Positions 6,873 through 10,415 of a stretch of DNA of 64,000 nucleotides are shown in pieces (the stretch's first letter is position 1; each line of letters starts with the position of its first letter). The position numbers and the translations under genes were made by a program. This DNA comes from Methanosarcina acetivorans C2A (GTDB taxonomy: Archaea > Halobacteriota > Methanosarcinia > Methanosarcinales > Methanosarcinaceae): positions 744,001 through 808,000 of the forward strand of contig NC_003552.1 of assembly GCF_000007345.1 (NCBI RefSeq). The letters run 5' to 3'. The notes below the pieces were generated by a model. The model did not search any database and was not told where the DNA came from. It saw only the letters and a list, made by a program, of their open reading frames with translations.

Positions 6873-7064
6873 TGGGGCTGGTGAGATTCGAACTCACGAT
6901 CGACGGGTATCTCCGAACAACTGCTTTTACAGTTCTCTGGTGAGCATCTATCAGTGCTCCAACGGTTCCTCATTGTCCTGCCCCGTCGGGAAGGACTCGG
7001 TAGACCCGTTGTTCATCATTTATCCGCTGGAGCCCATCGCCATGCCGGGCTAGGCCACAGCCCC
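6873..7064 (-). tRNA. tRNA-Trp (CCA), intron-containing
   Basis: On the minus strand the acceptor stem GGGGCTG (7064-7058) pairs with CAGCCCC (6880-6874), with A73 at 6873. The D arm, T arm (GTGAG-TTCGAAT-CTCAC) and anticodon stem ATGGG/CCCGT are all complete. The anticodon CCA is at 7030-7028. A 118-base intron (7026-6909) interrupts after position 37, the usual archaeal site, and the exon ends can form a bulge-helix-bulge. CCA is not encoded (ACCT follows). A T-rich run follows the 3' end and could terminate transcription. Confidence 0.95.
6909..7026 (-). ncRNA. tRNA-Trp intron containing a box C/D methylation guide RNA
   Basis: The intron contains box C (ATGATGA; core at 7018-7013), box D' (CCGA, 7000-6997), box C' (ATGAGGA; core 6972-6967) and box D (CTGA, 6955-6952). 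The guide before box D is complementary to the exon 1-intron junction, and its fifth base upstream of box D (G at 6960) pairs with C34 at 7030. The guide before box D' contains ACGGGT, complementary to positions 38-43, and its fifth base upstream of D' (G at 7005) pairs with C39 at 6907. Euryarchaeal tRNA-Trp introns are known to guide 2'-O-methylation of positions 34 and 39; this one fits, with C rather than U at 39. Confidence 0.9.
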
Positions 7065-7637: not shown

Positions 7638-8129
7638 TTAGTTGATTTTCTCGAACTTGGATGCAGGGGCTCCGCAAATCGGACAGTTCCCTTCAGGTTC
7701 ACCCTCTATGGTATGTCCGCAGACCCCACAGACGTAATAATCGACTTCTTTATTGTTCCCGAGTTCTTCCAGGGCTTTTTCATATAGTCTGGCATGGACT
7801 CTTTCTACTTTATTTGCTACTTCAAAGCTCCAAAGAGCCCTGTTGTCCCCCTCTGCCTTTGCTTCTTCTATAAACGTGGGGTACATTGTCTCAAATTCGT
7901 ATGTTTCCCCATTAACGGCCTCTTTCAAGTTTTCCATTGTAGTTCCGATGCCGCCCATACGCTGGAGGTGGTTGAAAGCATGGATGGTTTCCGCAGCAGC
8001 AGCGGCTCTAAAGAGTTTGGCTACCTGGGGATACCCTTCTTCATCTGCTTTTTTCGCAAAAGCAAGATATGTCCTGTTTGCCATCGATTCGCCAGTAAAT
8101 GCAGCCTTAAGGTTATCTTTGGAACTCAT
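7638..8129 (-). CDS. rbr: rubrerythrin
   Basis: Rubrerythrin reduces hydrogen peroxide using a diiron centre and a rubredoxin-type iron and protects anaerobes from oxygen. The 163-residue protein has an N-terminal ferritin-like four-helix domain with iron-ligand motifs (GESMANRTY, AAETIHAFNH, EVANKVERVHARLYEKA) and a C-terminal rubredoxin domain with C134-x2-C137 and C149-x2-C152. The start is the ATG at 8129 because AAGGGGAGA lies 6 bases upstream; an ATG at 8162 would add 11 residues but lacks an SD. The gene is monocistronic with its own terminator. A second ferritin-like protein without the rubredoxin domain is encoded at 56592. Confidence 0.93.
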   Translation of the reverse strand: MSSKDNLKAAFTGESMANRTYLAFAKKADEEGYPQVAKLFRAAAAAETIHAFNHLQRMGGIGTTMENLKEAVNGETYEFETMYPTFIEEAKAEGDNRALWSFEVANKVERVHARLYEKALEELGNNKEVDYYVCGVCGHTIEGEPEGNCPICGAPASKFEKIN

Positions 8130-8314
8130 GTATATCTCCCCTTGATTTGGATCTTTTTTCACCCTATTTTACAGTCATATCTATTATTCTTAACGCCCGT
8201 AAAAATGGTGAGTTTTGCTTCCACAACTGTTGTTAATGATATTAATATGATTGTTATTACTAATACTGCTTCGATAGTCATCCAATCTCTCTAAATTCAT
8301 TGAGTAAAAATAAG

Positions 8315-10210: not shown

Positions 10211-10289
10211 AAATAAGCTACATTTTAGGCCAATACGTTGATAGTCAGGAAATGTTAAACATGGAGTAAGTGTCAAAGATTGAGAGTCA

Positions 10290-10369
10290 CGCCCAGGGCA
10301 GGATTTGAACCTGCGATCCCAAAGGGAACGGTTTTCGAGACCGTCGCCATACCACTAGACGACCTGGGC
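10290..10369 (-). tRNA. tRNA-Ser (CGA)
   Basis: On the minus strand GCCCAGG (10369-10363) pairs with CCTGGGC (10297-10291), with G73 at 10290. The anticodon stem ACGGT/ACCGT carries loop CTCGAAA, giving anticodon CGA for UCG serine codons. The long variable arm (TCCCTTTGGGA) is the type II hallmark of tRNA-Ser. The T loop reads TTCAAAT. No intron and no encoded CCA. Confidence 0.95.
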
Positions 10370-10415
10370 ATTTTGTGATTTAAGAACGTTTCAGACTGGT
10401 TTTTGTTTGACTTAT

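Follow-up and report, generated by a model that had tools for sequence, protein, structure and literature searches.

The introns of archaeal tRNA-Trp genes that double as box C/D guide RNAs are well-known, textbook archaeal biology, and the tRNA-Trp gene of Methanosarcina acetivorans raises two questions about them: which RNA does each guide read, the unspliced precursor or the spliced tRNA, and how does a guide borne by an intron avoid blocking the splicing of its own molecule? The gene lies in a stretch of 64,000 nucleotides (hereafter the window) that represents positions 744001-808000 of the 5,751,492-base, single-contig genome, and the arrangement had been correctly recognised in an earlier note made from the letters of the window. 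Our analysis places the intron, with high confidence, in the known archaeal tRNA-Trp intron family, as a dual-guide box C/D RNA predicted to direct 2'-O-methylation of C34 and C39 (Cm34 and Cm39), whose D guide is built for the precursor and whose guides are probably masked in the folded precursor.

The tRNA-Trp(CCA) gene (RF00005, 41.9 bits) occupies 6873-7064 on the minus strand, exactly the interval assigned to it in the earlier note, and all parts of it described below lie on that strand. The 5' exon (7027-7064) comprises nucleotides 1-37 and contains the target C34 at 7030; the intron of 118 nt (6909-7026), inserted at 37/38, encloses the box C/D RNA; and the 3' exon (6873-6908) starts with A38 and contains the second target, C39, at 6907. 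The precursor is predicted to form a cloverleaf with a bulge-helix-bulge (BHB) splicing motif (z = -3.8; 0 of 200 shuffles as stable). The 4-bp helix of this motif pairs the exon strand CUCC (nucleotides 32-35; 7029-7032) with the intron strand GGAG (6911-6914), which is followed by a bulge made of A, U (the last intron base) and A38. In the mature tRNA the anticodon arm reads AUGGG-CUCCAGA-CCCGU, with C at position 39, and the intron also has a terminal hairpin, AACUG..CAGUU (6919-6934). When ARAGORN was run on the window it missed this intron-bearing tRNA-Trp, which the Rfam search found; a tRNA-Ser(CGA) at 10289-10370, minus strand, was the sole tRNA that it detected there. An ORF at 7638-8162, also on the minus strand and rubrerythrin-like by eye, adjoins the tRNA-Trp gene.

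Inside the intron, 7023-6949 match the Rfam family RF01133 (sR3) with 56.4 bits and an E-value of 2.4e-11, above the gathering score, and all four boxes fall within the intron. Box C, placed by the RF01133 alignment, is AUGAUGA (7013-7019), and it is followed by the D' guide ACGGGUCU (positions -9 to -2; 7002-7009), box D' CCGA (6997-7000), a D'-C' hairpin (6975-6996), box C' UGAGGA (6967-6972), the D guide CCGUUGGAGC (positions -11 to -2; 6956-6965) and box D CUGA (6951-6954), with boxes D' and C' being degenerate relative to their consensus. The assignment of the fifth base upstream of box D to C34, and of that upstream of box D' to C39, was borne out: both bases are G, both pair with their targets, and both registers are strongly conserved in relatives. 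The D'-C' hairpin displays compensatory changes in relatives, according to RNAalifold pair counts over 73 introns. Across the Methanosarcinales its loop is nearly invariant, of the CGACGG type, and its stem covaries. The C'/D' element looks like a stem-capped K-turn, whereas C/D has no obvious terminal stem: none flanks boxes C and D in the predicted precursor fold, and none is clear by eye in the Methanosarcinales.

Guides of about 8-10 nt can arise randomly, and the two matches could in principle be a chance resemblance in an unrelated intron. In 20,000 dinucleotide-shuffled versions of the intron, with any register of the anticodon arm allowed and the guide lying beside a CYGA box, 210 yielded a guide of at least 8 bp and 14 one of at least 10 bp, but the combination shown by the real intron, two sites of 8 bp or more of which one attains 10, came up in 0 of 20,000. 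The Rfam E-value likewise speaks against chance, and since the guide pairing is conserved across the phylum, with compensatory changes, this explanation is already refuted and must be viewed as vanishingly improbable.

RF01133 is present in 167 of 186 genomes of the order and in 116 of the 118 good ones. Phylum, named-genome and haloarchaeal scans, together with targeted fetches, supplied 201 distinct parsed introns from one phylum, a number which, like the intron counts below, refers to sequences and not to independent events. The haloarchaeal introns were recovered by BLAST of the mature tRNA; a search of haloarchaea for RF01133-like patterns with a CUGA box D gave nothing real, because their box D is CCGA. 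Base -5 of the D' guide pairs with position 39 in 201 of 201 introns. All 171 distinct non-haloarchaeal introns carry C39 with a guide G, and the 30 distinct haloarchaeal ones carry U39, facing A in 27 and G, as a wobble, in 3. The wobble at the modified position is seen in L188, L234 and L235, haloarchaeal introns of genus g55. The earlier note had stressed that the target at 39 is C and not the U39 described for Haloferax, and C it is, but this is not odd: given the 171 non-haloarchaeal cases, C39 is the common state, and the U39 of Haloferax and other haloarchaea the exception. Moreover, C39 of tRNA-Trp was already a predicted C/D target in Pyrococcus furiosus, where the modification went undetected by mass spectrometry (PMC7668247). 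Two Methanomicrobiales introns (L089 and G293:C1:67832-67907) have GGGUCUUUCUGA, in which an extra base separates the D' guide from box D' and would move the fifth-base rule off C39. An apparent second RF01133 copy in a Methanosarcina genome (L258, G172:C107:21720-22220) was rejected as a Methanocorpusculum-like tRNA-Trp on a mis-binned contig.

The choice between precursor and spliced tRNA can be addressed at the bases that the guides place opposite the ends of the intron. As had been observed earlier, the D guide crosses the 5' exon-intron junction: it forms 10 bp with the precursor, covering nucleotides 31-37 and the first three intron bases, against 7 bp with the spliced tRNA, and the predicted duplexes have energies of -20.5 and -11.5 kcal/mol, respectively. 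The first intron base and base -9 of the D guide are C and G in methanogens and most Archaeoglobi-like introns, A and U in 30 of 30 haloarchaeal introns, U and A in one Archaeoglobi-like intron, and U and G in one; this covariation, at the level of sequence, supports the precursor as the D target. The claim that methylation must precede or accompany splicing thus stands in so far as the D guide prefers the precursor, but its "must" is too strong: seven pairs in the C34 region survive splicing, and therefore neither order is strictly excluded by sequence. It also fares differently with the D' guide, where the preference is reversed.

The D' guide likewise crosses a splice junction, a point absent from the earlier note, and in M. 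acetivorans its better match is to the joined exons, with 8 bp to the spliced tRNA (-14.3 kcal/mol predicted) as against 6 bp to the precursor (-9.5 kcal/mol). Its base -3, a C, forms a U.C mismatch with the last intron base, at variance with a Haloferax-type guide that reads the precursor, and pairs with G37 once the exons are joined. Over the 201 introns the last intron base and guide base -3 are G and C in 150, U and A in 36, U and C in 14, and G and A in 1, this last being an intron whose D' element was misplaced by the parser. Where G37 and the last intron base differ, 41 introns fit the precursor only (30 haloarchaeal, 6 from Methanosarcina and 5 with A37), and 14 distinct introns, from Methanosarcina including M. 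acetivorans and from one genome of genus g11, fit the spliced tRNA only. The order-wide scan showed an intron ending in G in all except one of the genomes listed outside Methanosarcina, and A at -3 occurred in seven genomes, all of them Methanosarcina, of which those listed end the intron in U. M. acetivorans and most Methanosarcina thus end the intron in U but have kept C at -3, and in some Methanosarcina an A at -3 matches the precursor as it does in haloarchaea. A general rule that the D' guide always reads the spliced tRNA was rejected, as the haloarchaea, the A37 introns and one Methanosarcina group fit the precursor only. As both end bases of the intron sit unpaired in the BHB bulges, the splicing structure does not account for their covariation with the guides, and this covariation suggests that the guides of most lineages are designed for the precursor, with M. 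acetivorans and most Methanosarcina deviating at C39.

Within the Methanosarcina introns L236-L263, base -3 covaries with position 2 of box D' in every intron that ends in U, C going with CCGA and A with CUGA. On a DNA tree of Nop5-fibrillarin these two forms are scattered across Methanosarcina, lending no support either way to a single origin of A at -3; recurrent change or gene exchange may possibly lie behind the pattern.

With regard to the second question, the predicted fold of the precursor holds both guides in other pairings. CAACGG (7006-7011) forms a guide-guide helix with CCGUUG of the D guide (6960-6965; predicted P 0.91), in which positions -6 to -10 pair in 163-170 of 171 introns and -11 in 153 of 171. 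UGCUC (6942-6946), a short copy of the target located 3' of box D, acts as a potential decoy by pairing with GAGCA (6955-6959) of the D guide (predicted P 0.91), leaving a probability of 0.08 that the D guide pairs with its own exon. When the decoy pairing was forbidden in the M. acetivorans fold, this own-exon pairing rose from 0.08 to 0.99 and the splicing helix fell from 0.73 to 0.007, controls having little effect. Averaged over 65 Methanosarcinales introns, the same block raised own-exon pairing from 0.02 to 0.29, against 0.05 in controls. A decoy helix of at least 5 bp is found in 65 of 73 Methanosarcinales introns, and is absent where the tail is short. In haloarchaeal introns the stretch that separates box C from the D' guide contains ACUCCAG, replaced by AUUCCAG in a few; blocking this motif in 28 introns raised own-exon pairing from 0.003 to 0.38. 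Single introns are not individually significant for the decoy helix (mean shuffle p 0.27), and in single relatives the effect of the decoy was small or absent in three and opposite in a fourth (L087). The predicted effect also varies in size with the energy parameters: across 16 energy settings for M. acetivorans, blocking the decoy increased cis pairing in 16 of 16, slightly in some, and in others the controls raised it too. Taken together, these folding models suggest that the guide-guide helix and the decoy hairpin probably prevent the guides from pairing with their own exons, letting the splicing motif form.

How the two methylations are ordered relative to splicing admits several readings. 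In Haloferax volcanii both were argued in 2008 to precede splicing (PMC2584109), and this inference fits the D guide of the present intron, not the D' guide of M. acetivorans. Given that the latter has 6 bp to the precursor and 8 bp to the joined exons, C39 of this organism probably acquires its methyl group late, or despite a mismatch that is tolerated. Tolerance of the U.C mismatch at -3 would allow both methylations to occur on the unspliced precursor, to which we would assign somewhat less than an even chance. The haloarchaea, one Methanosarcina group and the A37 introns, all matching the precursor where the possible partners of -3 differ, argue for it, as does the reported use of pre-tRNA for in vitro methylation in Haloferax; the 14 distinct introns, from Methanosarcina and one g11 genome, that match the spliced tRNA and not the precursor argue against it. 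We tentatively entertain a reading in which C34 would be methylated on the precursor, and C39 on the spliced tRNA by the excised intron acting in trans. The D' guide would then have switched between UAU (reading the precursor) and UCU (reading the spliced tRNA) within one genus, and the differently placed decoys of methanogens and haloarchaea would each free their own exon for splicing.

It is also conceivable, though in our estimate unlikely, that the D guide alone works, methylating C34, and that in Methanosarcina the D' element is a relic in decay. The degenerate box D', the precursor mismatch at -3 in M. acetivorans and the failure to detect Cm39 in P. furiosus are in keeping with such decay. 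Yet in 13 distinct introns that share this Methanosarcina haplotype the 12 guide bases and the box are identical next to a variable adjoining spacer, the pairing of -5 with position 39 is kept without exception, and the haloarchaeal introns, a class that includes the experimentally active one of Haloferax, use CCGA boxes too.

As a mechanism, the intron RNA would assemble with L7Ae, Nop5 and fibrillarin into an RNP. The genes for the latter two are adjacent in the M. acetivorans genome: fibrillarin was matched at 4.5e-83, and the 336-aa ORF upstream of its gene is Nop5 by eye. Because it is homologous to the Haloferax intron, the M. acetivorans intron should direct Cm34 through its D guide, apparently built for the unspliced precursor, and Cm39 through its D' guide. 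In Haloferax, as cited in PMC11408192, PMC4090602 and PMC5372725, an intron of this architecture acts in trans to yield Cm34 and Um39, and its deletion abolishes both methylations and leaves growth unaffected. The excised tRNA-Trp intron forms a stable RNA circle in both Haloferax (PMC7714728) and Thermococcus (PMC9014305). The M. acetivorans guides would most likely also act in trans, either on a different copy of the precursor or once the intron has been excised, with their masking leaving the exons of their own molecule free for the splicing motif to form.

The intron thus shares with that of H. volcanii the 37/38 site, the dual guide, the same two tRNA positions and a D guide lying over the 5' splice junction, but differs from it in having C39 rather than U39, a CUGA rather than a CCGA box D, and a D' guide whose -3 matches G37 of the spliced tRNA instead of the last intron base; compared with haloarchaeal introns in general, its decoy lies 3' of box D and not between box C and the D' guide. 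The consensus of RF01133 already has a D' guide of the C39 type, and M. acetivorans departs from it by a 20-nt D'-C' insertion (the hairpin) and by C, not U, at the second position of box D'. The tRNA-Trp intron of P. furiosus (Pyrococcus sR50), likened here by its published targets, is likewise predicted to address C34 and C39 (PMC7994747, PMC7668247), the difference being that Cm39 was undetected there.

The C39 target and the point about splicing order are therefore ordinary or already published, and the testable points that remain are the mismatch between D' guide and precursor specific to Methanosarcina, and the decoy. As a useful by-product, the analysis provides a comparative way of testing which RNA a guide truly addresses. 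The decoy idea offers a possible answer to how an intron-borne guide avoids blocking its own splicing. Methanosarcina is genetically tractable, so whether methylation comes before or after splicing can be put to a direct test by comparing close relatives within this genus.
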